Of a stretch of DNA of 20,694 nucleotides, positions 3,999 to 20,694 are shown one piece after another; position 1 is the stretch's first letter; each line of letters starts with the position of its first letter. The stretch is from a virus. The stretch lies in IMG/VR virus record IMGVR_UViG_3300026094_000049, positions 1 through 20,694 of that record; one strand, written 5' to 3'. The position numbers and the translations under genes are program-made. Below the pieces are notes generated by a model. The model ran no database searches and was not told the origin of the DNA. It saw only the letters and a list, made by a program, of their open reading frames with translations.

Positions 3999-4613
3999 TT
4001 AAACCTCGTTAAACCCAGACAACGACTGGACTCTCACAGTGTAATCAATCTGTATCAGCCTATTCAAACTTTTTTGCACCGGATGAAATATCACATGAGT
4101 AAGCAATCTTCCGTTTCCGGTGTTAGAAAATGCACGCAGTCCTAGTTCGTCAAAGATATAATCACTAGTGGTGTCCGTGCCGGTGTCAAATGCATCTTGA
4201 TCAGGCGGTTCGCCGTAATCCAATAAGCAGGTAACAAACACGTCGGTGTAATTTGTACCTGCAACGTGCCGTGTTTCTAATTTGTTTCTAACAGGATCCA
4301 GATTGTTTACTGAGCGGTCGTCTACAACTTTGGAATAGGTTTGATTGTACAAAGCAGCATTTGTTCCTGTGGAATTTGGCGTCAGGTATGTTATAATTCC
4401 TGTAGGGTCTACGGACGTTCCTCCATTTCCAAAACTCATCTCATAAATCATGCCTGTGCCTTGATTGGCAAGACTTTCAGCAAGTGAAATGCTCATGTTT
4501 TCATAATGAATAGCATTGCGCTTGTCAATTATAGTTTCACCTGACTCAGGATCATGAATTTTAATGTGTCCTTGCAATAAAATTCCATTGGTATCTTTAA
4601 AATTATCTGACAT
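3999..4613 (-). CDS. Conserved phage virion structural protein (204 aa), function unknown
   Basis: The ATG at 4611-4613 is preceded by GTAGGA with a 7-base spacer, 21 bases after the giant gene stops. It is a soluble protein without signal peptide or membrane segment. It reads as a compact beta-rich domain: GHIKIHDPESGETIIDKRNA opens it, followed by a Gly-rich turn (MSFGNGGTSVDPTG near residue 60) and a C-terminal HVIFHPVQKSLNRLIQIDYT segment. I recall very similar small proteins annotated only as virion structural protein beside fibre genes in marine T4-like phages. Its length and its place just before a tail-collar gene recall T4 gp11 (219 aa) before gp12, but I see no gp11 motif, so that is only a positional analogy. 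The final Glu-Val codons carry the GAGG ribosome site of the next gene, 2 bases away, so the two are probably translated together. A fibre connector or small baseplate component is a reasonable guess. Confidence 0.7.
   Translation of the reverse strand: MSDNFKDTNGILLQGHIKIHDPESGETIIDKRNAIHYENMSISLAESLANQGTGMIYEMSFGNGGTSVDPTGIITYLTPNSTGTNAALYNQTYSKVVDDRSVNNLDPVRNKLETRHVAGTNYTDVFVTCLLDYGEPPDQDAFDTGTDTTSDYIFDELGLRAFSNTGNGRLLTHVIFHPVQKSLNRLIQIDYTVRVQSLSGFNEV
4004..4007 (-). promoter_or_regulatory. Ribosome binding site of the collar-fibre gene, embedded in upstream codons
   Basis: GAGG with a 7-base spacer precedes the ATG at 3996. It is formed by the final Glu-Val codons of the 204-residue gene, so the two reading frames share this signal. 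Confidence 0.5.
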
Positions 4614-4631: not shown

Positions 4632-4639
4632 TATTTATC
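4632..4639 (-). promoter_or_regulatory. T4-like late promoter candidate, GATAAATA
   Basis: On the minus strand the octamer GATAAATA overlaps the stop codon of the giant gene. It fits the NATAAATA form of the T4 late promoter reported for cyanomyoviruses and has one mismatch to T4 TATAAATA. Initiation about 6-7 bases downstream would leave a leader of about 12 bases that still contains the GTAGGA ribosome site of the 204-residue gene. It sits in one of the few intergenic gaps. An eight-base motif in AT-rich DNA can also occur by chance. Confidence 0.4.
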
Positions 4640-7600
4640 GTGGTAGATCAGTTGTTTGAGACTGCAAAAAACGCGATATGTCTGATTCAGATTGTGCAAG
4701 TGGCACACCTTGAGTACTCCACACCGTGCCGACCTTGCGTATAATAGTTATGTTCTCGCCTTCACCCGGTGCTGTGTTCAAGATTACTGAATTATTTTGA
4801 ATAGCAAATTCAGTTGGTAAAACTGTATCGCCTTCTGGCGAGTCTTGGGCTAGCAAAGGGTCAAAACTGGCAATACTATTTTTACGCAGGCGCTGTCCGC
4901 CCACAAATATTTCCACAGCATCTTGCATTAACATTTCAAAGTCGACTTGATATTGCACAGTTTCTCCATCTCCTTCAAAAGTTTGCACATCGGTTCTATC
5001 GTTGTAAGGCAATGAATTGCTGGATCCTTGCTCCACAAATGATGTGCCTGTCGGATACAGTTGTTTTATACCTGTGCCAAGTGTGCCTCGTCTCAGCTGT
5101 TTTAAACTGTTGCCATCTTTTACAAAATATTCAATTCTTTCTCCATTAACAAATATCACACCAGGATAACGAGAATCATATTCCGGAGATGGTAGATCTG
5201 TGGCATCGTCAACTTCTATTACAGTGTCGTACCAGCGCAAGTCGGCAGCAAGGTTGAAGGTTTGTCCCAATCGTTTATAGTGAGTTCTGTTCAGCATGTC
5301 TTTGAACTGTCTCCAACCATATTTGTTAGTTGTTGGAATCTCTGCGAGATGAAAAACATCAATTTTGTCGCCTATGTTTGGTTCATTTACCAAAATCACA
5401 TACTGTCTGTCATTGGAGAGCCAATAATCAACACTGGGATCCAGAGAAATTCCATTGACAGTTACCCATACCCACTGTGCATCAGTTGCAGGGGCTCTAA
5501 GAGCAATCACTCCTTTGGCTAACTGTCGGTACTCAAAATACTCTGCAGTTCCTTGAAGGTATTCTTGATTTTCTTCAACCTGCACTGTGTATCGTTGTAT
5601 GCCTTGGCTGTTATGGTTTGAAAATGAATAAACACGTATTTTTTCTCCGGCAGCAGGACTTTCGTCTAGGTGCAGCACTGGCTTGCCGGAGTCCGTGCCT
5701 CTTTCTTCTACAAACTGTTGATCTGAATCAAAAAATCCAAATCTGTAATCGCCGTCTGAGGTAACAAAAACTTCCATTGTATCGCCGGCTTCGGCTACGC
5801 CAAGATTCAATTTAATTATGCTGCCACTGCCTGCGTTTGCGCCAGACACTGAACTATCAAAAACTCCTGCACTTTCAAAGACGTAATCCTCTGGCTGAGA
5901 CAATACCGAACCATTTAAATAAACTTCTACTTCGTAAAAAGTTATTTCTCCTACTGGAATTTGATTAATGTTCAGCTGATATTCTGTTTGATTTTGCACA
6001 ATCTCAAACACTTCGGAATATCCGCTGTTTAAAACTGTGTTTCCTGCCTGCACAATAGTGTTTGCTCTGGCAGGTTGTTGTTGAAAAATTTCATTACTCA
6101 ACATAAATTCTGTAGTTGACCCATCTGATATAAATTCGTCTATGCTGGTTTCACTGTAATTTCTTTCTTGCACAGTGTCTTGTTCCAGCAACATTACATT
6201 TATAGAACTGTCAGCAGCTGGTGCCGCAGCAAAGCGAATCAATGTGTTGCCTGAGATTTCAAAAGAATTGTCTGACTGCAACAAATCAAATGTCTGTTTT
6301 TGCCCGTTTACAGTGACAAATGCTTCCTGTGTGTCACTGTATTCAACATCGGTGAGAAAATCAGTGGTAACACCGTTGCCAGTAAACTGTTCAATGTCCA
6401 GTATCTCATTGCCAGAATTGCCCAAAATTGTGATTGAAATCCGATCTGATTCTGCTGGTGCTTGTACAAAATCCACAGTTTGAGCGCCATAATTGATGTA
6501 GTAATTTTCGTCCAGTATCTGATAAATTCCATTCAATTTAACAAAAACATTCTGTTGTTTGATAGGCTTTGTGGTTATATCAAATTGCAGACTTGTGCCA
6601 TCTCCTACATAGTTGAGATTAATCACTGAACTTGAGCCGCCTATTGGTCTTTCAAAAACCTGTATGTCTAAGGTGTCTATGATCTGACCAGGCACTAATT
6701 CTTCCGGTCCAGATGAAGTGGTTGCTGTAACAAATCCGTCTCCGTCTGTTATAATGTCGCCTGCTGCTAAACCAGTTGCAGTTTGGTATGCTAAATCTCC
6801 GCCAGTGACTTGGCTGTCCAAGGTAGTAGGATCAGGAACAAATGCGCCGTCGGATGTGGTTTTTCTAAAGATTAACAACACTGTGTTGTCTTCCACGTCA
6901 GGCTCAGTATCTATGTTATAGTCAGACAACACAAGAGCCTGCGTTGACCCATCGCCTGTTATAGTTTCTGTCACAGCATCATTGTTTGTTTGTTCCGCTG
7001 AGCCAAAATTAGGATCGTCGATGCGAAGGTTTCTAACAGTATTACCATTGTCGTCGATTTCTTTGACATAGATATTGTAATCTGTGTCCAGCGCGAGCGG
7101 CCTTTCCAGGATCACTGTTTCTTCGACTGCTGTAGGAATAGCAAAAGAACTGTCTTCGAAGAATATTGCATTTTCTGAACTGTCCTGTTCTTTAATACGC
7201 ACGTGATCTACAGTGTTGAACTGTGCGTTCATTGCGCATTCCAATTGAATAGTGTCATTGCCTATGAATTCCACATATCCAGTGCCAGTGGTGCTGTCTT
7301 GTGTTAGAATTTTTGAATCATCTAAATCAAATGCGTCAGGAACGATATTGCCTGCAAAATGCAAAGTAACTTGTTTTCTATACAGAACCTCGTCTTCAAA
7401 AACAGTATCATAGATGTCCCAGGATTTTGTAAACCAAGGATCTGCATCCCATCCTGTGGTGCCGCCAAAGTCATATGAATCAACTTGTACTCCGCCATAG
7501 TCGATGCCTTCCATTAACTGACCAAGCTCGTTGCCTAGCTGTCCTACATCTGGTTGATACAAAAGATTGATTCTGTCTTGAGCATCGAGCAAATCAATGT

Positions 7601-10600
7601 TTTTGTAATATACCACTCTTACAGAACGATTGGCTATAGGAGCCTGCTCAAATGATATTCTACCATTCTGTCTTTCTCTGTCTTTGTCTGTATTATCAAC
7701 ATTTTTGTACGAATATTGTCCGCCCAGAACTTCTGTGTTGTCTACAAAAACAGCTATCTTGTCAGTTCGTAAATCCATTGGCCATTCTAGATCAAAATCA
7801 AATGTGGTTCCTGTGCCTACAAATGTTTCTTCGGTTTCAAGATTTTCAAACACAAACTGTCCAGAAACTCTGTCAAATTTGATCTGTGAATGAATTGATC
7901 TCACTGGAGAGCCGCCTAACTGTGCAACGGCTCTGGCAGCAGTTCCGCCATCGGCAATTGAACCATTAATTAGCACATTGGGTGCAGAAATGTATCCTGA
8001 CCCGGGGTCTGTAACTGTGATGTCGGACACAGTGCCGCCGCGGCCAACAGAAGCAACTGCTTTGGCTCCAGATCCGCCGCCGCCGGTTATTGTCACATAA
8101 GGAGCAGCTGTGTATCTGGATCCTGCATCAGCAACAGCAATATCTTCAATTGAAAAACCTACTTCGTCTAACCAATGTTTTTGAGGATAATCGGTTATGC
8201 CTTGCACAATTATTGAATTATCTCTGACCTGAGGATTATAAGGTTCTATTTTTTGAGTCACAGTGTTAAATCTTGGTGCAAGATCAAAATCTGTTGTCAT
8301 AGACCTTGTGTTATCCAATTTTTCGTAACTGGAAAGATATTCTCTTATGTTGGTCTTGAAAGGTTTTACTTCATTGACATAATCTTCGTAGTTTGGAAGA
8401 TTGTCATTTTGAAAAGTGACTTTCTGTTCAAGTTCGCCTACATTGTGTTGCGCTTTTATAAAACTGGTTTTGAAAGCCCAGTCCACATAGTTTTGTTCTG
8501 CAAACACATAACGAAGACTTGCAAAAAACAGTTGATTGTATTCATTGGACAATTCGTCTACAAAAAGGTTGTCTCTCACAGTTTCAAGTATAATTCTGGT
8601 TTCGCGAGAAGGAATAGCGTCATAGACTGTGTCATCAAATGTGGTAACATCAAACCCTGCTAAATTTTCAGTTACATCATAAAGAGCACTATCAAACTGT
8701 ATTGTGCCATTTTGTCTCCCTATGGTTTTATAATTTACAGTATAGTCAACATTTTCTTGATCATCAATTTTTTCCAGCAACAGCCATCCGCCTGTGCCAA
8801 TCGATTCTATCTTGACAATGTCACCTATTGAATCGCCTAAGCCATTTAACTGGTACGATTGGTCAATAACAAATGCAACTTCTGTAAATGCAGAATAACC
8901 TTGAGCATACCAATCTTGATATTGCCAATATTGAGCAACATCAAATCCTTGGCTTTCTACTCTGGTCCACTCCTGATCTGTTCTTTCATAAATTGCCCAG
9001 CGTCCTGACAGGTCGAGATCCTTTTCTACAAGAACGCTGTAGGGACGCACTGTTAATTGGGTGTTATTGCTATAATATTCGCCGGCTTCGTCGATTGCAG
9101 CCGAAACAACCGAGCCGTTGCTGTCTATCTCCGTGCGAATTTCTGCACCTGTTCCGCTGCCAGCAATTTCTACTCTAGGAGGATTTTGATATCCTCGGCC
9201 AGACTGTTCAATGTCAACATTTATGATTCTGCCATTTTCTATCACTGCAGAAAGTTGTGCTTGGCTAATCCGAGCTGTGCCTATAAATTGAAGATCTGCT
9301 TCAGTTTCCACAGTTCTGTCCCATTTGCCTGTTTGTGCAATCGGCTGAGGCTCTTTTTCGGTTAATCTACTGATATCTTTTTCGTCAACAATGAGATTCT
9401 GTTGAAGGACTCTGTTAACACGGTCGACGGTCTGTTTTAATGCTTCTGCTCTGTTAACAAACCAGCTCTGCCTTGGTCGATTTAAAGAACCATATTTTTC
9501 CTTAGCGCTCAATTCAATTGCAGGAACAGGGCGTCTGGCATTGTCGAATCCCACCAAACTGTCAAACCATTTTTGCTCTACATCTCTTGAAGGACGACTT
9601 GACGTAAGCCCGTCTGTGATTATTTGATATTGATTGTGAATATTAATAGTTTGGTCGTCAATAGTCCAATACTGTATCGATAGAGCAATGTCCCGATTTT
9701 TAATCAGTCTTTTACAGTTGAAAATAGCCCATTGATCAGGCGCAATCAAAGTAATAAACTGATACCCTTCGGCAGCTGGGTCAGCTATAAGGTTTGCTAT
9801 TGACTGTGCAGACAGTCTTCTTGTCTGACTCTGTGGCACTGTGCTTTTATTTTGTACCCAAAAATAGTATTTGATCGCAAATGTTTTTGATTCTCTGAAA
9901 TAGATCCTTTTTTCCACATAACCGTTGTCGCCGTAGCGAGTTGTGCCTGTAATTCCACGTGAGAATCCCTGTTCTGTGCCAGACTGTCTGTCCCATTCGG
10001 AAGGAGGTATATCGCTTTCTGTCCATTCGAATATATCAACAGTTGCAGTATTAGAATACAATCTGTTCCAGTTGTTAGCAGAATATGTGACAGAACTTTG
10101 GTAGGGATTTATAAATCTGGCATTAGACAGATTCCACCATACTTGTCCTACCTGTTTTTCTCCCCAGGAATTTGTTACATCAATCTGCACATCTTCGCCG
10201 TCAGTGTAAACAGCAGGATCATAATAGAGTTTGTAATCTATTTCTTGCTCTGCAGGCCCGGGTATTTTTCCTTGGTTTACATCAATGTAATCCAACCTTC
10301 TCACTAGTTGGTTTTCTCTGGTGTCGTAAAGAATTATCTGTTTGATCTTGTCTACATCCACTGTGGGCTTGATTGATCTTTGAGTTACCCAAACTGCTGA
10401 ATCAACTGCACGTCTGTAATCGACCAACCTGCCTTGCAGAGAGGAGTCACCTGCTAATGTAGGTAAACCCGCATATACATGATTGTTGTTGGCTTTTATT
10501 GATCTTCCAAAAAATCTCACGCCATCTTTGTCATAATCGATGGTTTGTCCGTATATGAAATATCCATCCAGGTTTTGATAAATTCCCACTGTGCCTGCAT

Positions 10601-13600
10601 TTGCGGATACATCAACAAAATCAGTCAGTCCTCTGTCAAATATTGTTGCACTGCTGTCAAAAATGGTCTCTATTTCAGAGTCGCCGTTGTCTGCTGTGAC
10701 AATCAATGTTGTGCCGTCAAAGTCAACCTCTGATCCAAACAACAGTGCTTTTCCGTATTCCGAAGGGTGTACCAGTTGTTTTAGTTCATAAAATCCGTTT
10801 ATCTGTTCGTAAACATACACCACACCTTGGTTGACATTTTCATTGTCATTCAAAGGAGCACCAATTGCTAGATATGTTCCATCATTGCTGAGAGAAATAC
10901 TGGCGCCAAAAGCACTTTCTGGATTTTGCGCTGTTATGACCTGTGTTAAAACAAACAAACCGTTTATGCTTCTGTACACAGCAATTCTATTAATATCGCC
11001 ACTGTATTCCAGAGATGTTGCAACAACTTCTCCTGTATCCGAGGCTGCTGTGTCTCGGGTAAATGTCAACAATCCAGTTTGTTCTAACACACTGTTATTG
11101 TCCAGCTGCAATCCTGTGTTGTTTGGTATAAAGCCAATATAATCAATTGGCTGACCCAGCGTTTGCCAGTCTGCAGAATCAAACAGGCCGGGCATGATAT
11201 TGGTTGCAGCACTGTATAGTTTGCCACCTTCAAAGACTATATCATTTTCAAAGTATCTTCTATTGTCATCAAACTGTCCTGCATAAAGTTTGTTAATTCC
11301 AAGATCCCAGGAAAATCTTTGATTGTTGTCTAAGCCGTTTTTAATCACATACACTTTGCCTGCATCTGCAGCATTGGACTGTGTTGATACAAAAAGTCTC
11401 TGTAACTCATTGAATGTTGAAATCTCAACAGTATGACCTAATCTCTGATTTGGCGTTCTTTCTGGTGCGATAAACGAACCGACTCTTAACCACTGGCTGC
11501 CGCCGGCCTTCTGATAAACAGTATACAAACCCTCATTTTGCGGTCCTATGTTATTGCCTGCTGCTCCTGCAGGAATTCTGTAAACCTGCAACCAGTCATT
11601 GTTTGCTGAACTAGGAACATTTGCAGGTCTTGGTGCTCCATTAACAACTTGTTCATTGTAGAACCAGTATTCTGCATCAATCAAAGAAGTAGTGCCGGTG
11701 TACTCTATTGGTTCTGGATTTTCAAAAACCAACATTTTGCCTATTCCTGCACTTTCAAGTCCTAGGCTTCTTGACAGTATGTTGCCGATAGCTCTGGAAC
11801 CGCTAGCTGGATCAAATTCTTCACTGCCTGACCCGTCTGCGAGATATTCTATAATCCTGTTTTGGTTGAAATTGTCACCTAGTGCAAATTGTCCAGACAC
11901 ATTTTTTACATATACTCTAGCCAGCCTGTTTGTGAATTTTTGATAGAAAACCACTTCGGCTGTGCCGCCGAAATCTGTGTCCCGCACTGTGAGTCCTACC
12001 TTAGGTTCAACTGGCCGGCCTTGGTAATCATTTTGTATTTGAAAATCAATGTATCCATCCCATATATCTGTTATGGTTCTTGTTCCTGATATGTCTGATA
12101 CTGCAAGTCCGATGCTGTTAGGATCTTTCCATTCTTGATTTGCGTAAGTTTTGAGAGAATTATAAAACAAATCAATGGTATCGCCGATGTTTACCAGAGG
12201 AGTAAACGCCGAACTGTCTACCGCACCAGTTAACTCAGCCGGTGCTCTTACTGCCCACAAGGACGACGGGAAAATTCCTGAAGCCCCACCGGGTCCAGAA
12301 ACAGCTTCGTAAGTTAAACTGATAACTTCACTGTTTTTAGTATCTTCACTCGAAGAAATTTCGGTGTCAAAGTCCAAAACATTATAATAAAATCCATGAT
12401 CAACATCTCCAGCTGGAATAATGTCGGTGTAGACCAGTCCTTTACCAAGATCTGCTGCAGTATTGGCCACATCGTATGTGAAAGAAAGATCTATTTTGAA
12501 ATATCCATTCCAAAAACTGTCAATGTCAGCAGTTTGCGCTGCTGGTGCAACAGTTTCATATTGGCCTACAAACTCGCCAATGTCTGTGGTCGCTGCACCA
12601 GAATTGCCAAAATCACCATTTTGATTTTTGACATAAACCGTTATATCCACAGGAGAATTAGCGTACACATAGGCCACAGTGCCAAATGCCGTTATGGTTT
12701 CAATGGTTTGTCCAATTTGTGGAATATTATCTGAGTTTTCAAATCTCAAAATAGAATCAATTTTATCTGAAATCACATGCTTGCTGGTTAGAAAATCTGC
12801 ATCTATTTCGTCTATGGAGCCATTGAACGGCTGCACATCCTGCAGTTGTTCTGCGTTTTGATGTGCATAGGAGACTGTATTCCATTTGAGTTCAATTTCG
12901 TCGCCTATTACAGATGCTTCAAACATCTCCTGTGGTGCTTTTACAAGAAAGTGATCAACTTCAGAGATATTAGTGTATGGATAATTACCTGCAAGAAGAA
13001 CATTTACGTCTTCGCTGTTTTGATTTGTTAATCCAAGGTCCAGTAAAATCTGCGGCACACTTTGAAAAGAGCCTACCTCAATACTGGCCACGCTGCCTTG
13101 AATATCAACCAGTGCTTGCCAGTAAGCGTCGTTGAGTTCCGCTATCTCGTTTTCTGCATAAGATTTGGTTTCGCTGTAATCGCCGGCGAAAGTGCTTTTC
13201 ACATCGCTTGCTTGCGGCGATCCGACTGCAATAAAGTTACCAGTGTCATCTATTGCAACACTAGCGCCAAATCTTTGTCCAGGGCTGGCCAGATCCTCGT
13301 CGGCTTCCAGAACTGCATTTAATTCTAGAGTTTGATTCTCACTGGATCTATTATAGATATAGACTTTGCCGGCGTCTTCGTCTGGAGCTCCTACAACAAC
13401 TGTTCTGTTGGACCTGTCTGCATCAACAGCAGCAGCAAAATTGTCACCTTTTTGCGAGTCTGGAGTCACTGAGTCAGCTTCAACAAATGCGTCATTTCGA
13501 TTATACACTGCCCATGAATTATTGCCAGTTTCGTCTACCCAAATTCTGGACACACCTTTTTCAACCAAAGGAATCACTGTGTTTGCGTCTTGAAAATCTT

Positions 13601-16600
13601 CAAATCTCACGGAAGTAAATCTTGTGATTCTCCCCTGTATCTCTGTTTCTGGCAATTCAGGCACAGTTTCCGATAGCAGTTCCACACTATTGTTAGATAT
13701 TCCTGCAATTTTGTACAATCCATCTGCGTTTTCGCAATTGAACAGTCCAATTATCTCGTCAACAGCGAGATCAATGTCTGCTGTGGTCAAATTAACTGAA
13801 AATCCATTTGCAGTGTCTTCAATGGATTCAATTACATAATCAGTTTGAATGTGTGCATAAACATTCCAGCTGGTTCCGTCAATGCCTGCCCAAATCTTAG
13901 CACCTGCTGTGACATCGTCAAAATTCAGTTCCAGTATGTCTTCGTAGCTGTCAATTTGAAAATCAACATCATCAGGATGAACATATCCGCTGTTTTTGGT
14001 AAATGTGTCAACAACTGTTTTTTCAGGAAAAGGACGGTGGTCATAATTTTCCGGAGTTTGAAAAACTTCAGAGGGCGTAATTCTATAAATTAGATCAGTA
14101 GCAGTATCGCTGGTCTGATTTGTCAGCTGAAACTGCTGTGGCTCTGTTCTGAATTTCTGCTCGTCTAACAGATATTCAACTTCTTCAAATCCGTCAACAG
14201 CGCCGTATTGACCAGACTTTATTGCCCATTCTTCATAAAATTCAAGACTGTCTCTGTTTGCTGAACCTAAAACATCAAACAGTTTCCTAAAAGCATTTTC
14301 TGTGCCTTTGTCTTGAATAAAGCCTTGATAAAACTTGTACTGCGAAACATCATCGTTGATAATATTTGCCAGATACTCTCGATTCTGGTATCCAATTAGA
14401 TGTTGAGCAAATTTCTGCTGCTCTGCGTCAAAATTATCAGTGTCAAGATCATAGAAGTCAGCAAACTGATTGGTTTTATATTCCCAGTTAGGCAAAAGAC
14501 CGCCTGAGGGTTTTTCAGGCAGTCTAACCCAATTACGTGCTTCAAACACTGCAGTTCCTGGAACTCTGTTTCTAGCAGCATAATAAAACTCTTTGTAATT
14601 GACTATGTCGCCAATTGCATAATCACGCCATGGCTGCCATTCTTCTGCCTTGGCATCGTCGTAAACAAACCCTGGCACATTAATCGATCCGTCCCATTCT
14701 GCTGTTCTGTATCCGAGAACTTTTATTCTTTCCTGTCTGTAACCTGGTTCTTGATCGTAGATAATATCACCGAACACAGTTTTATTGTCAATGATTATTG
14801 CATGTTCTTTTTGTATCAGACTGATGCGTATTCCAAAAATACCATCTGCTGTGTTTTTGGTTCTTATATCAAACTCGTTGGGGTTGATCCTTGCAACCGA
14901 CACATTGCCGGGCTGTAGTTTTTTGCCGTCTGCTTTGGTCAAACTGTAACCATAAAAAGTGTCATAAACACTGTCTACTGTTGCAAATTCTGACACAAAT
15001 CTAAATTTAATGCCTGCTGGAGATACTGCTATAACAGCCCCTGCTTCCCAATTTTGCGTAGTCCAAAACAGAAATTCTCTTGCACTGGTTTTCCAATTGG
15101 TAACCAAGCCATTGTCTGATTCATAATAATCAAACACAAAACCTTTGCTTTCCAGCCAAGCGCCGTATCCAAGCAGAAAATCAACTACGTCTTGAATTTC
15201 TGAAAATGACTCTCCGTACCTAATTTCAGATTCCTGAGATTCAAACTTGGTTCTGAATTTGGCTGTTCTGCCGCCTTCAATCGGTATGTCTGGTAATTTT
15301 ACAAATTTGCCGGAATCAAAATTTGCCGCAGTTTGGTGTGTTTCGGTTACTCGATATATGGTGTTTTCGTACTGTACTATTTTGCCTTTAGTCAGTGTTT
15401 TTTCTGAATCCCAGTTTATTACGTTAGCTGATATACCGCCTATGGTTTCCGTTGAATCGCTATTAGCAGGCACGGGTTTGAAGTATGTGAAATAGGGTTG
15501 CTGGTTATTGTAGCCGCGCACCGTGAAACCTGCAGGTCTTTTTTCAACAACAACACCGCTATAATATATGTTTTCGATTGGAGCACTTGTGTTGAAAAAT
15601 ATCTGATAGTTTTCTTCAGGAACAAAAACGTTGCCTTGATTATTGGGCGTTCTAGAATCTAGGATCAACTTGAATTTTTCTTTGCTAGTTAGTCCTGCAA
15701 GTTTAAATCCAATTTGATTATTCAATGCTGAAATGTCTGACTTGTAATCATCATAAACTGCTGTTACATTAGAAGTAATGTAGTCTCTCACGTAATTGAC
15801 CAATCCACTGGTAAACACACGCTGATTATCCTGCACAGTGTTTGGAAGATTTATTTTTTCCAGTTGAATCTGTGTGTTTTCTTCTTGGTATGAAATTTGC
15901 CCAGACAGATCTCGGAACTGTCGTGTTCTGTCAAATGCAGTTGCAAAAACACTGTTTGGTCTATTCAGCACAAATGCTGTTAACAGAGCAAAAGCGTATT
16001 CTGAACTTTTTCGCCAAGCTGTTTCAACCGGTGACCAATCGCCAAATTGATAATTTTTATCCAGCAACTGACTGTTATAATAATCAACATAACCAGATGC
16101 CATCGGAGACACAAGATTACCAGCATCGTCGACCGGAAGATGACCAGTTAATCCAGGCCGAGCAAATTTTTCATAGACTACTGGCGTTTGTCCAGGCTGT
16201 TTAACTATGCCTTGCTCTATGTCTTCCCACAGCAGCAAATTGCCTTGTGTATACGGAGCAGGACCATACTGTTCATTCCACCAATCTGGCTTTTGAGAAA
16301 ATCCCAGCATTTCCCATGGTCTGGCATGCGGTGCATCTGTGTCATAGGCTTCTTGATAAACATTTCTCCAAGATCCCAAAATTGCATCGCCGTTCCAGTT
16401 GGTCATTCCTGTGTGATTCCAGGTAAATGGATTTTGTCTATCGTAAACAGGATTTTCAGTGAAATCGTTGTCTATCAATCTCAACCATTCAGTAAAATCT
16501 ACAAGCAAACTGGTATCTAAATTGGCTTTTGCAATGCCGTTGCTGCGATAAGTGCCTTGTTGATAGTTGTAAACGTCAAACAGCTCATCGTTGTATTCAA

Positions 16601-19600
16601 CTTTGAGGTTGTTGTAGATTCTTTTTTCCAATTCAAGTAGCAGATCATCTCTGAAATCATTAAACGCTATGATTCTGCTGCCATCGTGGCCGATTATAAC
16701 ATCGGTGGGATCGATATATGTATCGTCCTGCTGTTTTTCTGGAACAAAGCTAGGAAAAAGTCCCAGTTTTGTTGGAGTGGGCGGCACATAAGAACCAGTG
16801 GTGCTTTCGTACTCATAAACTTCTAATACATCGTCTCTGACTTGACCTGCTGTTAATTCTATAAAACCTTCGCTGTTGAAACGATAATCCTGCCCATGCA
16901 TCAGCTGACTACCATTTAAATAAACCAGCACAGCTTGATCGCTGGGTGCTTCTAGCGTAAATGGACTGTTGAGGCCAAAAAAGATTTGTTGATCTGATAT
17001 AATGTCAAACCTAAAAACTCGAGCTCCGCCTCTGGGAATCATGTCAGAGAAGTAAAAGGCATCTGTGTTTTTGTTGTTCTTTGTCAGCTCTCTCAGTATT
17101 GTTTCAACCTGTTGACGCACATTTCCTGAATCTGGTAGATCACGTGCAAGTTGTAAAAATTCTCTTTTGAATTTTGCATATTGAGATTTTGCAAAACGCA
17201 GTGATTTAACCACATTGGCATTTTTGTCAAGCAGGTGATACAATGCAAGGTTCAAGGGTGCCGAATGTTTGACAATGCGCTTGCCAAACGCAGTGATGTC
17301 GCCCAGATCGCGGAGATTAGAATTGCCAGGATATTGTCCTTGAAACTGATCTAATTCTTCTATTATTGTGCCCACATGATCGTTAACTTCGCCCAGTGTA
17401 AGTTCATTGACATCTCTGTTTAATGGATTTCTTTCTAGGTTGATAGGAATTTCATAAAAACCGTTGCTGTTTTTTGGCTGCGATGACCTAGTTTGCAAAC
17501 GCACAACATCATTTTCGTGAACCGGATTGTTCAATATAACAAATGCTGTAGACCTGCGTGTTTCAATTGTGTAATCGGTAGTATACAAACCATTTATAAA
17601 AACCTTTACACTGAGATCATCCAACATACCGCTGTTGTCATAAACATCAACAGCAAAATCTGTTTGATCAGTTTCTGCTTCAAACTGCCTGGTAACAGAT
17701 TGGTAACTGGGCTCATTGGCAATTTTCCAGCCGTTTTCTATTTCAAAATCAGTTCTAGACGAATATCTTCTCAAATAACCTGCTGACGTCTTTTCCTGTT
17801 GTGGCATTTCACCGTCTGGGCAGAAAGTTGCAGAATCAGTTAACAAATCAAATTCAAAAACAATGTCGCCGACGTTTTCAATCGAACGATATGCCAGTGG
17901 AAACCCCAGTTCGCTGTCAGCTGATCCCAAGCCCTGTTTGTAAGAGAACAGTTCTGTTCCAGCAAAATCTGTTGAAACATACACAGTGCTGTCACTTAAA
18001 CTGTCTCCGTCGCAATTGAAAATATCAAACAAAGGCGGTTGATTGGTTTGTTCTTTGTTTTGCGCTTGTTCCCAGCTTTCGCCGTTGAAGTACAAAATTG
18101 AACCTTTGTAAACATCGCCTTGGCCCACAAACACAGATTCGTTTTCAAGGGCTTCCGTATCATCAGCTGGCACCAAGGAAATTTGTCTGCGTCCCTTGAA
18201 AGTTATAAATTTGACTTGATAGATTTGATTTTTGACTCTGATATCAGTGTCAGCCGTAAACAGCACTCTCATGCCATTTGCAATATCAATGCCGTCAACA
18301 TTGTAACCTTCTTTGCCTTCTATGATGGAAAAAACATCAACAGTGAAATCGTCTACTAGATCCACAGGTTGTTTGGATACTGTGCCAAACTTAAACAGTT
18401 TTAAATTGGGTTCGAATTCAATGATAGGTCGTGTTGCACGTTGGCTCTGATCCAACAACAGTGCTGTGCCTGTAATTTCTGCTGAACGTTCTATTACACT
18501 GCGATGAAACCATCTATTGTATTTTGACCATAAATTTCCGTCTATTGAGGTTCGATTGATTGTGAGATAGTCTTTTTCTCTGGGATATCCTATTGCTGTA
18601 GAATAAGGAATTGTGTCAAATCCTTCAGAATCGAACTCAATTGATTCGTTGTCCACAAATGCGCCAGCTAATGTGAGCTCAGACTCTGGTATTAATTGAA
18701 TGGCTTCGCCCACTCCTTCAACATAGTAAAATCCATTTTGAAAAGTTTCAGGCCTCGTAGTGCCTTGAAAATATATTTTCATTCCATTGGAAAGATCAAA
18801 GCCGTCGCCAGTTGTGTAATTTGATTTGCCTAATATTTCGTTTTCAACATCTATAAACGCAGCTTCTTCTGGATCATACACTCTAATCAGTCCGCCGGCG
18901 TTTATATCTCTGTCGCTTACATAATAGATGTATTCTGGAGTGTTTTGATTTAGAGTGAGTTCAATCACGCCTTGTTCAACGCCCTGCTGAGAAACTTCAT
19001 TAAGCAAGTTAAATGTTGTATCAATCTGCCATTTTTCTTGGTCTGCTTCCAGGGTGTCATTGGATCGATGGGTAGCAACAGCTTGATAAACTGTTCCTTC
19101 ATATACCACAGTTTCTCCTACTGTAAACAAAGTGCCCGGGGTCCAGCGTTTTGCTGTGGTTTTTTGTGATCTAAAAGATAGCGGCAAACCTGGTGCGTCA
19201 ATTTCAAATCTATAAGTGACACCTCTGTAAAGAGTCAACTCTGGATTTTGTGTTAGTCCATCAGGAGTAAAAACAAATCCAAAATTGTCAAGGTTGTCAA
19301 CTGCAGAGACAGTGTATGTGCTTTTTATGCTTACGGAATCGCCAGAGACTGGCACCGGAGTCGGTCCGTTAGGCAACCAATAGTATTCTCTGAAATTGGC
19401 AAACTTGTCCCAGTCAATGTGCGGATTCCATGCATAATATTCCTGCTGGTTTAGCGCTGAATGATCGTCTGTGTATCCTCCTAGATTTGTTATTTGGTTG
19501 ATGTAGTCATTGTAATCTGCATAAAATGACACATTGTTCAACTGATCTTTGATGATTGTGGCAGGCTCAAATTGATAATTTTCTCGCTGTTGTGATACAT

Positions 19601-19826
19601 CACCTATGTAAAAATCATCAGTTGAAAACGCTTTGGCCTGTTTTCTTCCAAAGTAGCCATTGAGTTTTTCGGCCGCTCCTGGCTGTATCAATTGATCTAT
19701 AGTGGAGGAAAGAAATTTGTTGTTTACTTCTGTTCTAAAGAATTTAGGTAAATGTTCCGCACCGGTTCTTTTTTGATTCGAACCCTTAGGAAGTGGTAGA
19801 TCATTTTGCCCGTTATTGTAAGCCAT
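4635..19826 (-). CDS. Giant modular virion structural protein (5,063 aa), probably baseplate-associated
   Basis: One uninterrupted 15.2-kb frame. The ATG at 19824-19826 overlaps the upstream TAA and follows a GGAGGA ribosome site. Approximate layout in residues: 1-160 conserved N-terminus (GYFGRKQAKAF near 58; Trp/Tyr-rich EYYAWNPHIDWDKF near 130); 330-565 two copies of a GxDxxNGM motif unit; 709-783 and 934-1009 beta repeats; 1165-1210 Trp-rich PWEMLGFSQKPDWW segment; 1540-1610 and 1840-1900 conserved-looking core; 2124-3152 FG-GAP propeller, split by an insert at 2208-2763; 3520-3596 and 3889-3976 GSGY repeats; 3994-5038 mainly beta repeats, plus an LRRGTLGT domain near 4911. Five CBM5/12-like motifs are scattered through it. 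No signal peptide, membrane segment, protease or S74 chaperone motif was seen. It resembles large virion proteins of marine myoviruses that I recall. Position after gp6 suggests the gp7 slot, but I see no sequence proof of gp7 homology. Likely role: baseplate periphery and host-surface binding (inference). Confidence 0.85.
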   Translation of the reverse strand: MAYNNGQNDLPLPKGSNQKRTGAEHLPKFFRTEVNNKFLSSTIDQLIQPGAAEKLNGYFGRKQAKAFSTDDFYIGDVSQQRENYQFEPATIIKDQLNNVSFYADYNDYINQITNLGGYTDDHSALNQQEYYAWNPHIDWDKFANFREYYWLPNGPTPVPVSGDSVSIKSTYTVSAVDNLDNFGFVFTPDGLTQNPELTLYRGVTYRFEIDAPGLPLSFRSQKTTAKRWTPGTLFTVGETVVYEGTVYQAVATHRSNDTLEADQEKWQIDTTFNLLNEVSQQGVEQGVIELTLNQNTPEYIYYVSDRDINAGGLIRVYDPEEAAFIDVENEILGKSNYTTGDGFDLSNGMKIYFQGTTRPETFQNGFYYVEGVGEAIQLIPESELTLAGAFVDNESIEFDSEGFDTIPYSTAIGYPREKDYLTINRTSIDGNLWSKYNRWFHRSVIERSAEITGTALLLDQSQRATRPIIEFEPNLKLFKFGTVSKQPVDLVDDFTVDVFSIIEGKEGYNVDGIDIANGMRVLFTADTDIRVKNQIYQVKFITFKGRRQISLVPADDTEALENESVFVGQGDVYKGSILYFNGESWEQAQNKEQTNQPPLFDIFNCDGDSLSDSTVYVSTDFAGTELFSYKQGLGSADSELGFPLAYRSIENVGDIVFEFDLLTDSATFCPDGEMPQQEKTSAGYLRRYSSRTDFEIENGWKIANEPSYQSVTRQFEAETDQTDFAVDVYDNSGMLDDLSVKVFINGLYTTDYTIETRRSTAFVILNNPVHENDVVRLQTRSSQPKNSNGFYEIPINLERNPLNRDVNELTLGEVNDHVGTIIEELDQFQGQYPGNSNLRDLGDITAFGKRIVKHSAPLNLALYHLLDKNANVVKSLRFAKSQYAKFKREFLQLARDLPDSGNVRQQVETILRELTKNNKNTDAFYFSDMIPRGGARVFRFDIISDQQIFFGLNSPFTLEAPSDQAVLVYLNGSQLMHGQDYRFNSEGFIELTAGQVRDDVLEVYEYESTTGSYVPPTPTKLGLFPSFVPEKQQDDTYIDPTDVIIGHDGSRIIAFNDFRDDLLLELEKRIYNNLKVEYNDELFDVYNYQQGTYRSNGIAKANLDTSLLVDFTEWLRLIDNDFTENPVYDRQNPFTWNHTGMTNWNGDAILGSWRNVYQEAYDTDAPHARPWEMLGFSQKPDWWNEQYGPAPYTQGNLLLWEDIEQGIVKQPGQTPVVYEKFARPGLTGHLPVDDAGNLVSPMASGYVDYYNSQLLDKNYQFGDWSPVETAWRKSSEYAFALLTAFVLNRPNSVFATAFDRTRQFRDLSGQISYQEENTQIQLEKINLPNTVQDNQRVFTSGLVNYVRDYITSNVTAVYDDYKSDISALNNQIGFKLAGLTSKEKFKLILDSRTPNNQGNVFVPEENYQIFFNTSAPIENIYYSGVVVEKRPAGFTVRGYNNQQPYFTYFKPVPANSDSTETIGGISANVINWDSEKTLTKGKIVQYENTIYRVTETHQTAANFDSGKFVKLPDIPIEGGRTAKFRTKFESQESEIRYGESFSEIQDVVDFLLGYGAWLESKGFVFDYYESDNGLVTNWKTSAREFLFWTTQNWEAGAVIAVSPAGIKFRFVSEFATVDSVYDTFYGYSLTKADGKKLQPGNVSVARINPNEFDIRTKNTADGIFGIRISLIQKEHAIIIDNKTVFGDIIYDQEPGYRQERIKVLGYRTAEWDGSINVPGFVYDDAKAEEWQPWRDYAIGDIVNYKEFYYAARNRVPGTAVFEARNWVRLPEKPSGGLLPNWEYKTNQFADFYDLDTDNFDAEQQKFAQHLIGYQNREYLANIINDDVSQYKFYQGFIQDKGTENAFRKLFDVLGSANRDSLEFYEEWAIKSGQYGAVDGFEEVEYLLDEQKFRTEPQQFQLTNQTSDTATDLIYRITPSEVFQTPENYDHRPFPEKTVVDTFTKNSGYVHPDDVDFQIDSYEDILELNFDDVTAGAKIWAGIDGTSWNVYAHIQTDYVIESIEDTANGFSVNLTTADIDLAVDEIIGLFNCENADGLYKIAGISNNSVELLSETVPELPETEIQGRITRFTSVRFEDFQDANTVIPLVEKGVSRIWVDETGNNSWAVYNRNDAFVEADSVTPDSQKGDNFAAAVDADRSNRTVVVGAPDEDAGKVYIYNRSSENQTLELNAVLEADEDLASPGQRFGASVAIDDTGNFIAVGSPQASDVKSTFAGDYSETKSYAENEIAELNDAYWQALVDIQGSVASIEVGSFQSVPQILLDLGLTNQNSEDVNVLLAGNYPYTNISEVDHFLVKAPQEMFEASVIGDEIELKWNTVSYAHQNAEQLQDVQPFNGSIDEIDADFLTSKHVISDKIDSILRFENSDNIPQIGQTIETITAFGTVAYVYANSPVDITVYVKNQNGDFGNSGAATTDIGEFVGQYETVAPAAQTADIDSFWNGYFKIDLSFTYDVANTAADLGKGLVYTDIIPAGDVDHGFYYNVLDFDTEISSSEDTKNSEVISLTYEAVSGPGGASGIFPSSLWAVRAPAELTGAVDSSAFTPLVNIGDTIDLFYNSLKTYANQEWKDPNSIGLAVSDISGTRTITDIWDGYIDFQIQNDYQGRPVEPKVGLTVRDTDFGGTAEVVFYQKFTNRLARVYVKNVSGQFALGDNFNQNRIIEYLADGSGSEEFDPASGSRAIGNILSRSLGLESAGIGKMLVFENPEPIEYTGTTSLIDAEYWFYNEQVVNGAPRPANVPSSANNDWLQVYRIPAGAAGNNIGPQNEGLYTVYQKAGGSQWLRVGSFIAPERTPNQRLGHTVEISTFNELQRLFVSTQSNAADAGKVYVIKNGLDNNQRFSWDLGINKLYAGQFDDNRRYFENDIVFEGGKLYSAATNIMPGLFDSADWQTLGQPIDYIGFIPNNTGLQLDNNSVLEQTGLLTFTRDTAASDTGEVVATSLEYSGDINRIAVYRSINGLFVLTQVITAQNPESAFGASISLSNDGTYLAIGAPLNDNENVNQGVVYVYEQINGFYELKQLVHPSEYGKALLFGSEVDFDGTTLIVTADNGDSEIETIFDSSATIFDRGLTDFVDVSANAGTVGIYQNLDGYFIYGQTIDYDKDGVRFFGRSIKANNNHVYAGLPTLAGDSSLQGRLVDYRRAVDSAVWVTQRSIKPTVDVDKIKQIILYDTRENQLVRRLDYIDVNQGKIPGPAEQEIDYKLYYDPAVYTDGEDVQIDVTNSWGEKQVGQVWWNLSNARFINPYQSSVTYSANNWNRLYSNTATVDIFEWTESDIPPSEWDRQSGTEQGFSRGITGTTRYGDNGYVEKRIYFRESKTFAIKYYFWVQNKSTVPQSQTRRLSAQSIANLIADPAAEGYQFITLIAPDQWAIFNCKRLIKNRDIALSIQYWTIDDQTINIHNQYQIITDGLTSSRPSRDVEQKWFDSLVGFDNARRPVPAIELSAKEKYGSLNRPRQSWFVNRAEALKQTVDRVNRVLQQNLIVDEKDISRLTEKEPQPIAQTGKWDRTVETEADLQFIGTARISQAQLSAVIENGRIINVDIEQSGRGYQNPPRVEIAGSGTGAEIRTEIDSNGSVVSAAIDEAGEYYSNNTQLTVRPYSVLVEKDLDLSGRWAIYERTDQEWTRVESQGFDVAQYWQYQDWYAQGYSAFTEVAFVIDQSYQLNGLGDSIGDIVKIESIGTGGWLLLEKIDDQENVDYTVNYKTIGRQNGTIQFDSALYDVTENLAGFDVTTFDDTVYDAIPSRETRIILETVRDNLFVDELSNEYNQLFFASLRYVFAEQNYVDWAFKTSFIKAQHNVGELEQKVTFQNDNLPNYEDYVNEVKPFKTNIREYLSSYEKLDNTRSMTTDFDLAPRFNTVTQKIEPYNPQVRDNSIIVQGITDYPQKHWLDEVGFSIEDIAVADAGSRYTAAPYVTITGGGGSGAKAVASVGRGGTVSDITVTDPGSGYISAPNVLINGSIADGGTAARAVAQLGGSPVRSIHSQIKFDRVSGQFVFENLETEETFVGTGTTFDFDLEWPMDLRTDKIAVFVDNTEVLGGQYSYKNVDNTDKDRERQNGRISFEQAPIANRSVRVVYYKNIDLLDAQDRINLLYQPDVGQLGNELGQLMEGIDYGGVQVDSYDFGGTTGWDADPWFTKSWDIYDTVFEDEVLYRKQVTLHFAGNIVPDAFDLDDSKILTQDSTTGTGYVEFIGNDTIQLECAMNAQFNTVDHVRIKEQDSSENAIFFEDSSFAIPTAVEETVILERPLALDTDYNIYVKEIDDNGNTVRNLRIDDPNFGSAEQTNNDAVTETITGDGSTQALVLSDYNIDTEPDVEDNTVLLIFRKTTSDGAFVPDPTTLDSQVTGGDLAYQTATGLAAGDIITDGDGFVTATTSSGPEELVPGQIIDTLDIQVFERPIGGSSSVINLNYVGDGTSLQFDITTKPIKQQNVFVKLNGIYQILDENYYINYGAQTVDFVQAPAESDRISITILGNSGNEILDIEQFTGNGVTTDFLTDVEYSDTQEAFVTVNGQKQTFDLLQSDNSFEISGNTLIRFAAAPAADSSINVMLLEQDTVQERNYSETSIDEFISDGSTTEFMLSNEIFQQQPARANTIVQAGNTVLNSGYSEVFEIVQNQTEYQLNINQIPVGEITFYEVEVYLNGSVLSQPEDYVFESAGVFDSSVSGANAGSGSIIKLNLGVAEAGDTMEVFVTSDGDYRFGFFDSDQQFVEERGTDSGKPVLHLDESPAAGEKIRVYSFSNHNSQGIQRYTVQVEENQEYLQGTAEYFEYRQLAKGVIALRAPATDAQWVWVTVNGISLDPSVDYWLSNDRQYVILVNEPNIGDKIDVFHLAEIPTTNKYGWRQFKDMLNRTHYKRLGQTFNLAADLRWYDTVIEVDDATDLPSPEYDSRYPGVIFVNGERIEYFVKDGNSLKQLRRGTLGTGIKQLYPTGTSFVEQGSSNSLPYNDRTDVQTFEGDGETVQYQVDFEMLMQDAVEIFVGGQRLRKNSIASFDPLLAQDSPEGDTVLPTEFAIQNNSVILNTAPGEGENITIIRKVGTVWSTQGVPLAQSESDISRFLQSQTTDLPR
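4715..7845 (-). repeat. C-terminal beta-sandwich repeats of the giant protein
   Basis: Repeats follow the pattern FxGDGxTxxF, VxVNGxxQ, a DY-type turn, IxFxxAPxxGDxIxV. Copies lie at about residues 3994-4078, 4286-4330 (poor second half), 4405-4473, 4475-4551, 4560-4692 (expanded), 4741-4826 and 4946-5038. Examples are YVGDGTSLQFDI with VFVKLNGIYQ, and FTGNGVTTDFL with AFVTVNGQKQ. Two earlier copies sit at 709-783 and 934-1009. Such immunoglobulin-like domains are common in phage fibres and adhesins, where they act as spacers or weak binders. Between the last two C-terminal copies, about 4840-4933, sits a separate domain with GVIFVNGERIEYF and LRRGTLGTG that I recall from other large phage structural proteins. 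Confidence 0.6.
7900..9270 (-). repeat. GSGY-type glycine-rich repeats in the giant protein (two separated pairs)
   Basis: The first pair is at residues 3520-3596 (SGRGYQNPPRVEIAGSGTGA and AGEYYSNNTQLTV). The second is at 3889-3976 (AGSRYTAAPYVTITGGGGSG and PGSGYISAPNVLINGS). Each unit runs GxGYxxxPxVxIxG, a Gly/Ala-rich stretch, then GxVxxIxVT. About 290 residues of unrelated-looking sequence separate the pairs. This unit recurs in many environmental phage structural proteins I recall. The first pair is more degenerate, which suggests it is older or under different constraint. Confidence 0.6.
10370..13460 (-). repeat. Seven FG-GAP-like beta-propeller blades encoded within the giant gene (interrupted)
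   Basis: Approximate blades by residue of the giant protein: 1, 2124-2179 (NFAAAVD, VVVGAPDEDAGKVYIYN); 2, 2180-2207 plus 2764-2793 (RFGASVAIDDTGNFIAVGSP, resumed by GLYTVYQKAGGSQWLRVGSF); 3, 2794-2846 (RLGHTVEIS, GKVYVIKNG); 4, 2911-2969 (RIAVYRSINGLFVLTQVI); 5, 2969-3023 (AFGASISLSNDGTYLAIGAP, GVVYVYEQINGFYELKQL); 6, 3024-3100 (LFGSEVDFDGTTLIVTAD, VGIYQNLDGYFIYGQTI); 7, 3101-3152 (FFGRSIKANNNHVYAGLP). The pattern FGxSV, about 10 residues, LxVGxP, GxVYVY, GxWxLxxxL is that of bacterial FG-GAP repeats. Blade 4 lacks a clear FG-GAP opening and blade 3 has lost the Pro, so the count of seven is my reading by eye. Confidence 0.65.
11534..13207 (-). other. Insert of about 555 residues inside propeller blade 2, with recurring segments
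   Basis: The second blade breaks off after AVGSPQASDV and resumes with EGLYTVYQKAGG. Between them lie a CBM5/12-like motif (residues 2214-2256) and two rounds of related segments: APQEMFEASVIGDEIELKWN (about 2294) against APAELTG followed by IGDTIDLFYN (about 2527); FGTVAYVY with VYVKNQNGDF (about 2380) against FGGTAEVVFY with VYVKNVSGQF (about 2615); WNGYFKIDL (about 2440) against WDGYIDFQI (about 2588). The last two elements occur in different order in the two rounds. This suggests duplication followed by rearrangement, or overlapping repeat phases. Confidence 0.5.
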
Positions 19827-20694
19827 TAGTAACTGAGTCCTCCGCCTGTTGACCCGCTGTCTGTGGTATTAGTCATAGTTGATGCACTTTGTATGCCTGT
19901 TATAGATGAAGCTGTTGATTGAGTGGTAATAGATCCATCAGCTTTTAAACTAGCTGCTGTTATCTCGTCAATGATGTCTATGTCGCTGACAATTGCTCCT
20001 GATATGAAAATTTCGTCTGATTCTGCTTTAATTTCATACAAGGACCCAAACACTTGGTTGCCTTGCTCCGGAACAATCACAAATGTGACAATGTCTGGCG
20101 ACAGTTCGTTCATCACATAGCCACTGAGTTCTGAAAAGAAAAATCTGTCGCCAAAGTCCCAGTTTTCCAGCGCAAAAAATCTGTTGATTGCTGCTATCAC
20201 TCTTGATTTCACATCATTGTCATTGATTACTAGGTCTGGATTTTTGACCACTTTGAACTGTGCTTGCAGATCAGATTCTGCTTTGCTGCCAAACAGCACT
20301 TTGTATTTCACAGGATGATAAATTATCTCGTCTGAGAGAGACTTGATTCTGTTTAGTTGCTGTCCATACGACACAAAAAGATTGTCCGAGCTAGGTGGCA
20401 AAGGTTTTTGAGATCGTTCGCCGTCTAACCATTGTCTGAATTCAACATCGTAGCCTCTTGTGAGCAAGTAACTGTCAATGATATTGGATGCACTGGGATC
20501 AATTCTTTGATTTTCGTCGGCTGCATGTAGGTATCTAAATGACAATTTGTCACGACCTACTTGTGCGCGATACTGTGTGTCAATGTTGAATCTAGCAGTG
20601 TCTTTGTTGAAACGTTCAAAAATGTTTTCTGCAATGTAATAAAACAGTTGAGCATCGTTGTATTGTGACAGCGGCGTTGCTAATGCGGTTGCTT
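19826..20694 (-). CDS. Baseplate wedge protein, T4 gp6-like (C-terminal part; 5' end beyond window)
   Basis: The frame is open to the window edge, giving 288 visible residues and a TAA stop. A TTG at 20543-20545 could be read as a start, but 49 more in-frame residues lie upstream and read as real protein (such as NDAQLFYYIAENIFERFN), so the TTG is internal and the gene is 5'-truncated by the window. Segments such as FRYLHAADENQRIDPS, ENWDFGDRFFFSEL and FGSLYEIKAESDEIFISG match what I recall of the C-terminal region of T4-like gp6. That protein forms the inner ring of baseplate wedges and joins neighbouring wedges around the hub. The last 35 or so residues are a Ser/Thr/Gly-rich tail ending GGGLSY that looks unstructured. 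The stop overlaps the start of the giant gene as TAATG, so translation is probably coupled. The gp6 call comes from remembered family features, not an alignment; another baseplate_J-like protein is the alternative. Confidence 0.75.
   Translation of the reverse strand, partial: ATALATPLSQYNDAQLFYYIAENIFERFNKDTARFNIDTQYRAQVGRDKLSFRYLHAADENQRIDPSASNIIDSYLLTRGYDVEFRQWLDGERSQKPLPPSSDNLFVSYGQQLNRIKSLSDEIIYHPVKYKVLFGSKAESDLQAQFKVVKNPDLVINDNDVKSRVIAAINRFFALENWDFGDRFFFSELSGYVMNELSPDIVTFVIVPEQGNQVFGSLYEIKAESDEIFISGAIVSDIDIIDEITAASLKADGSITTQSTASSITGIQSASTMTNTTDSGSTGGGLSY
19838..19843 (-). promoter_or_regulatory. Ribosome binding site of the giant gene
   Basis: GGAGGA lies 11 bases before the ATG at 19826, inside the Gly-Gly codons near the end of the gp6-like gene. 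It is the strongest anti-Shine-Dalgarno match among the starts in this window, though its spacer is longer than the 7 bases seen at the other starts. Together with the TAATG overlap it suggests coupled translation of the giant protein. Confidence 0.6.

Follow-up and report, generated by a model that had tools for sequence, protein, structure and literature searches.

A seven-unit FG-GAP_2-type repeat array was found within a giant baseplate protein encoded on the minus strand of the IMG/VR virus record IMGVR_UViG_3300026094_000049; the 20,694 bases of this record were analysed and are referred to as the window. Residues 2124-3155 of the giant protein hold seven units of this type (U1 to U7, Table 1), the seventh of which is weak, and the region is predicted to adopt a beta-propeller fold. 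An FG-GAP-type propeller in residues 2124-3152 had been proposed in a first-pass annotation from the DNA letters alone, and this proposal was backed by Pfam, profile-profile comparison, AlphaFold and Foldseek. The numbering of that annotation was also right, residue 2124 corresponding to base 13457 and residue 3152 to base 10373.

FG-GAP_2-type repeats and the predicted fold

The Pfam model PF14312 (FG-GAP_2), with a curated cut-off of 23 bits, matched the propeller region at 55-57 bits (E=6.8e-15 to 2.2e-15), and the match was found in 25/25 aligned family members. The integrin-type FG-GAP model PF01839 gave no match in the search of the window genome at E 0.001, the match being to PF14312 instead. 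Pfam alone on the window fell narrowly short of the FG-GAP hits in at least four units that the first-pass annotation had asked for, because only U1, U2 and U5 reached FG-GAP_2 singly; profile-profile comparison added U4, U6 and U3. For the latter, blade profiles built from 25-sequence alignments were compared as hidden Markov models with hhalign. U1, U4 and U5 matched one another at 91-98%, and U2 matched U1 and U5 at 95-98%. U6 matched U2 at 88% and U5 at 67%, U3 matched U5 at 60%, and the match of U7 to U5 was weak (22%), while the best of 81 control comparisons against segments of the insert described below was 3.3%. The tandem repeat accordingly counted three units by Pfam, six by profile-profile comparison and seven by predicted strands. 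Phosso gp108, a protein with 27 FG-GAP_2 repeats, aligned across U5-U7, and U6 and U7 fell against its genuine repeats (E=2e-13). The best PDB sequence-profile match of the region was integrin alpha-6 (E=0.003), and a single-sequence query of the PDB gave no match. Of the five clear FG openings reported earlier, four were literal (U2, U5, U6 and U7); U1 opens with FA in the window and FG in relatives, U3 with LG, and U4 has no such opening.

AlphaFold2 was run on residues 2061-3166 with 25 sequences. The model had a mean predicted local distance difference test (pLDDT) score of 83.2 and a predicted template modelling (pTM) score of 0.67. Every unit from U1 to U7 had four strands (mostly pLDDT 80-93), and three more were predicted in U0, the unit just ahead of the propeller. 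The best PDB matches in Foldseek were integrin alpha heads (E 6e-8; template modelling (TM) score by target ~0.3; root-mean-square deviation (rmsd) 11 A), and the best matches in the viral library, where the best E was 2e-17, included FG-GAP proteins of phages and giant viruses. Superposition on propeller targets was loose (TM ~0.3-0.5, rmsd ~10 A). The contig segment L133 (10596-12713), a natural homologue without most of the blade-2 insert, was folded separately. Its model (pTM 0.72, mean pLDDT 69.7) was mostly confident in the propeller region and poor in an insertion between U1 and U2 and in the first half of U2, and integrin alpha chains were again the top PDB matches. As integrin and FG-GAP matches were obtained for the window model and integrins again for L133, the beta-propeller fold class is well supported by the predicted structures. 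The region is extremely unlikely to be a beta-rich protein with chance FG- or GAP-like strings, for although three units only match Pfam singly and the TM to known propellers is moderate, the Pfam E is near 1e-15, 25/25 relatives match, the controls stay below 4%, and integrin heads and FG-GAP proteins are the best structural matches.

A closed ring and a definite blade count are less well supported than the fold class because the superpositions were loose. Of the seven-blade ring proposed earlier, the seven repeats stood, both by sequence and by 7x4 predicted strands; the ring itself may be closed, with TM values of only ~0.3-0.5 and the extra three- to four-stranded U0 directly ahead of U1. 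U0 is possibly an eighth blade or else an ancestral hairpin of the core. An eight-bladed ring, in which U0 joins U1-U7 with the core hairpin included, would be compatible with the functional readings weighed below. Both AlphaFold models gave U0 three to four strands with good confidence, and TM was 0.3-0.4 on seven-bladed templates; however, its profile similarity to every other unit was below 2%, and a resembling hairpin (VWID..WAV) occurs at the syntenic place in the propeller-free PA5oct, with a profile match of only iE 0.12. We consider eight blades unlikely.

The first-pass annotation had also suggested that a DYDKDG loop between blades could bind calcium. The loop exists, yet it was conserved in 6/25 aligned relatives and 6/66 of the wider set and lies off the integrin position, and no integrin-type DxDxDG motif was found in the A-B loops of the units. 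A calcium site at DYDKDG was rejected owing to this lack of conservation, and, as judged from the alignments, the loop is in all likelihood no conserved site for calcium.

Inserts, slot and inheritance among relatives

Blade 2 is split by a 562-aa insert in its B-C loop, the boundaries of which (2204-2765) were close to those given before (2208-2763). Also present, though missing from the first-pass annotation, is a 76-aa insert that separates U3 from U4. Inside the large insert is a two-fold duplication, nested in a CBM5/12-like module, for which PF02839 matches were found in 17/25 relatives. The duplicated domain of ~210 aa (2280-2705; 11712-12989) has the motifs LVRAP...KWNTLSYA and GTVAYxY...IYVKxxNGxF and no Pfam match. 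In the insert-poor homologues L123, L126, L133 and L137, the propeller is kept with a lone CBM5/12-like module of ~60 aa, versus 562 aa in the window. Since these four hold only ~60 aa there, the large insert, on the sequences compared, is either a later addition or was lost in the insert-poor branch. The insert-poor homologues have a further insertion between U1 and U2, on the same face, with a weak E1_FCCH-like match (E=2e-4 in L133, ~residues 135-202 of the segment).

Strands A-D were assigned from the model, which places the B-C and D-A loops on one face (top) and the A-B and C-D loops on the other (bottom). All insertions, in the window as well as in relatives, were located on the B-C/D-A face. 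The median loop length in the window was 10 aa on the top face and 3 aa on the bottom face (Mann-Whitney p=1e-4), and loop length variation over 25 relatives was nearly zero on the bottom face (p=3e-4). These results showed that, given the predicted strands, the insertions are one-sided.

The giant protein was homologous to virion proteins of jumbo myophages, including PA5oct gp355, Atu_ph07, Phosso gp294, SCTP-2, RaK2 ORF070, Vibrio phage 2.275.O and others, and contained the core blocks of the giant virion protein family phrog_10938 (E=4e-107, 7e-155 and 1e-76). Homology to the cultured relatives ran up to residues ~1900-2020 and began again from ~3125-3167. The slot in between is ~110 aa long in RaK2-like phages, 250-270 aa in Vibrio 2.275 and PA5oct, and ~500 aa in Salicola phage SCTP-2, and is filled in Atu_ph07 and Phosso by an unrelated stretch of ~1,500 aa with many glycine-rich repeats. 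The pattern of these repeats is NPGxGYxxAPxVxVxGGxGxGA (L003 16452-21074, L004 16503-21080). Blade profiles matched none of the cultured phages (10/10 without a match), though the core aligned on both sides of the slot; the statement that no cultured member has the propeller covers INPHARED of August 2025 at tblastn sensitivity. A search of IMG/VR with the upstream core detected at least 551 relatives, and among the best 80 of these the propeller was present in 64/64 complete slots with both flanks, the four insert-poor homologues being counted in the 64. No relatives were found in the bacterial genomes searched. The flank alignment A3 was insufficiently conserved as a query of the collection. 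The sequence comparisons showed the propeller to be a feature of an uncultured jumbo myophage clade, inherited clade-wide. Phages of this clade can also encode a second, separate FG-GAP_2 protein, as seen at L139:6498-13802 (2,434 aa, seven Pfam repeats) and L140:4170-6863 (897 aa, five), one of which is combined with bactofilin-like beta repeats.

The median identity to the window over ~70 relatives was 51-55% in the core blocks and 33-40% in the blades and insert. Distances in the blades correlated with those in the core at r=0.81-0.85, compared with 0.88 between core blocks, and no swap-like outliers were seen among 49 non-redundant relatives; the correlations are descriptive, as pairs of relatives are not independent. 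Among close relatives, blade similarity equalled core similarity. Because blade distances track the core and swap outliers are absent, the propeller is a baseplate component that has been passed on vertically while evolving faster than the sequence around it, and not a mosaic host-range cassette.

Placement at the baseplate and proposed role

The gene order is gp25-gp6-giant, and the giant gene lies directly downstream of gp6 in the window and in cultured relatives, as does gp7 in T4. The homologue PA5oct gp355 has an electrospray ionization tandem mass spectrometry (ESI-MS/MS) mark in its record. The baseplate location assumed in the first-pass annotation agreed with this gene order and with the homology to a protein marked as detected by mass spectrometry. 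PHROG models link the giant weakly to the T4 gp7/BW3 wedge family.

The seven-unit propeller fills a variable slot in the giant wedge protein encoded directly after gp6. In a closed ring the two ends would lie together, so that the propeller could sit in the chain with the core unbroken. We propose that it serves as a rigid platform facing outward from the rim of the baseplate, a location suggested by the gene order. Given the predicted strands, the B-C/D-A face carries all extra modules, namely the two CBM5/12-like modules and the duplicated 430-aa domain, and through this face the propeller would most likely dock fibre or spike proteins and so position the receptor-binding apparatus. In T4, gp10, gp11 and the gp7-type wedge protein make up the rim pins, and a domain of this wedge protein is bound by gp9 (PMC3004832). 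Receptor-binding proteins (RBPs) of most contractile tails attach to BW3, of which T4 gp7 is an example, and the tail spike gp124 of Milano has an N-terminal tail-binding module wedged between the baseplate proteins BW2 and BW3 (PMC10811340). In the SU10 nozzle, a solved seven-bladed tail propeller, extra domains sit between blades 2 and 3 and one loop docks a fibre (PMC9509320). The T4 gp7 pins, the attachment of RBPs to BW3, the likeness to Milano gp124 and the SU10 precedent favour a platform at the rim by which receptor-binding proteins are docked or positioned; by these analogies we hold it tentatively, at close to an even chance. Several observations weigh against it. The ring is only putatively closed. 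Core profiles compared with T4 gp6-gp14 by hmmsearch and hhalign gave no match, T4 gp7 included, so the gp7 position is assigned by synteny. The match of the CBM-like module (profile A4) to residues 80-118 of Milano gp124 was weak (E=0.013), and the divergence of the blades, which is faster than that of the core, fits a receptor-facing domain too.

The propeller may instead, as suggested in the first-pass annotation, be a receptor-binding (adhesin) domain itself, contacting the host at the baseplate rim via the variable face, the CBM-like modules or the large insert. This is a serious but lesser possibility. Conservation is lower in the blades and the insert than in the core on either side, the propellers of phi11 RBP, PRD1 P2 and phiKZ gp131 have been proposed as receptor-binding parts (PMC4901313), and separate FG-GAP proteins occur on the same contigs and in Phosso, in the latter with laminin-G-like lectin domains. 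However, the blades are co-inherited with the core and show no trace of domain swapping, similarity between close relatives is the same in blades and core, separate fibre genes, one with a Collar domain, lie next door, and CBM-like modules in phages can dock rather than bind sugar (PMC10811340). A peripheral docking platform is slightly favoured over a host-range tip because of this co-inheritance without swapping. A passive spacer, by which the propeller would only widen the wedge of a jumbo baseplate with no specific partner, was considered improbable: in Atu_ph07 and Phosso the slot does hold glycine-rich repeats of an unrelated kind, and RaK2-like phages have a short one, but the selective insertion of modules on one face and the 64/64 retention suggest a specific surface role. 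Still less probable is an integrin-like sensor head in the wedge, in which the propeller with its one-face modules would bind the receptor, signal via the protein at the gp7 position and trigger baseplate opening with no fibre between.

Downstream of the giant gene are genes for a 204-aa protein (3999-4613), a Phage-Tail-Collar protein (1975-3996) and a 631-aa paralogue of the Collar protein (80-1975). The fibre-like genes 80-1975 and 1975-3996 have homologous N-terminal halves (29% identity, E=8e-33), which suggests duplicated attachment domains, and the Collar domain is found only in 1975-3996. Near the C-terminus of the giant, residues 4479-4544 (6195-6392) gave a sub-threshold match to PF03906, the T7 tail-fibre N-terminal domain (E=4e-4). 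Further CBM5/12-like modules of the giant lie outside the propeller at residues 228-255 (19062-19145) and 1471-1501 (15324-15416), and may, in phages, serve protein docking rather than sugar binding.

Table 1. Features of the giant protein and its surroundings in the window
Feature	Residues	Bases	Strand	Evidence
Giant baseplate protein, propeller host		4635..19826	-	Open reading frame, 5063 aa; phrog_10938 match; directly downstream of gp6-like gene
gp6-like baseplate wedge gene, C-terminal part		19826..20692	-	phrog_10646 baseplate wedge subunit, E=5e-72
Conserved core block upstream of slot	1200-1700	14727..16229	-	A5 alignment; at least 551 relatives in viral contigs
U0, just ahead of propeller	2062-2123	13458..13643	-	Predicted 3-4 strands, no FG-GAP similarity
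U1	2127-2180	13287..13448	-	Pfam FG-GAP_2 E=3e-5; hhalign 98% with U5
U2, first half, strands A and B	2184-2207	13206..13277	-	Pfam FG-GAP_2 E=2e-4; hhalign 98% with U5
Insert of 562 aa in B-C loop of U2	2204-2765	11532..13217	-	~60 aa in L123, L126, L133, L137
CBM5/12-like module, N-terminal part, split by inner insert	2210-2262	13041..13199	-	hhalign 96% with second CBM-like module
Inner insert, repeat copy A	2280-2490	12357..12989	-	hhalign 94.8% with copy B
Inner insert, repeat copy B	2491-2705	11712..12356	-	hhalign 94.8% with copy A
U2, second half, strands C and D	2766-2790	11457..11531	-	AlphaFold strands; close behind first half in insert-poor homologues
U3	2794-2842	11301..11447	-	AlphaFold four strands; hhalign 60% with U5
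Second CBM5/12-like insert, between U3 and U4	2843-2918	11073..11300	-	Profile A4 versus Milano gp124 residues 80-118
U4, without FG opening	2919-2970	10917..11072	-	hhalign 97% with U5, 91% with U1
U5	2971-3024	10755..10916	-	Pfam FG-GAP_2 E=4e-7, 30.6 bits
U6, with 33-aa low-confidence B-C loop	3025-3103	10518..10754	-	hhalign 88% with U2, 67% with U5; Phosso FG-GAP alignment
DYDKDG loop, between U6 and U7	3097-3102	10521..10538	-	DxDxDG-like in 6/66 relatives
U7	3104-3155	10362..10517	-	AlphaFold four strands; hhalign 22% with U5; Phosso FG-GAP repeat alignment
Conserved core block downstream of slot	3160-3480	9387..10349	-	Homology to cultured relatives

Comparison with known systems

The giant wedge-position protein of RaK2/PA5oct-like jumbo phages thus has an internal slot able to hold whole extra domains, and in one large uncultured clade an integrin-type FG-GAP propeller is apparently a permanent part of the baseplate. 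The propeller is a domain added to the baseplate architecture that is missing from the T4 model. The insert-poor natural homologues should make the structure easier to solve. No paper on FG-GAP with a baseplate or with a jumbo phage was found in the open-access library searched, and the FG-GAP-type propeller embedded in a giant wedge-position protein and conserved through an uncultured clade is new. Phage propellers as such are already known from phiKZ gp131 at a jumbo baseplate rim, phi11 RBP, PRD1 P2 and podophage nozzles. The earlier claim that such a propeller is not part of known baseplate models therefore held for T4, but not in general, since the jumbo myophage phiKZ has one of seven blades, in gp131, at its baseplate periphery (PMC4901313).

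The closest relatives, the phrog_10938 giants (RaK2 ORF070, PA5oct gp355, Atu_ph07 and Phosso gp294), share a homologous core over most of the length and the same order after gp6, whereas the cultured members checked have no propeller and a slot that is short or filled with unrelated sequence. Proteins of the FG-GAP_2 family (Phosso gp108, and those of uncultured Caudovirales and giant viruses in BFVD) resemble the present region in having repeats above the Pfam cut-off and were among the best viral structural matches; they are separate proteins with regular repeats, in contrast to the seven degenerate units found here, which are part of a baseplate protein and of which one is interrupted by a 560-aa insert. 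The integrin alpha head has seven FG-GAP-type units, was the best fold match in the PDB (E=6e-8) as well as a sequence-profile match, and carries extra domains on its propeller; unlike in integrins, no DxDxDG loops were present at the canonical place, and the superposition was loose. The I domain of integrin alpha lies between blades 2 and 3, whereas the large insert here is inside blade 2.

Among tail proteins, phiKZ gp131 (PDB 4GBF) likewise associates a propeller with a jumbo myophage baseplate, but its propeller is the C-terminal domain of a separate protein, and it was not among the PDB sequence-profile matches or the 50 best fold matches. The SU10 and T7 nozzles share with the present protein a tail propeller core with inserted domains, and their seven-bladed propeller has a fibre-docking loop (PMC9509320), whereas the nozzle is a podophage protein lining the tail channel, with no sequence relation seen.

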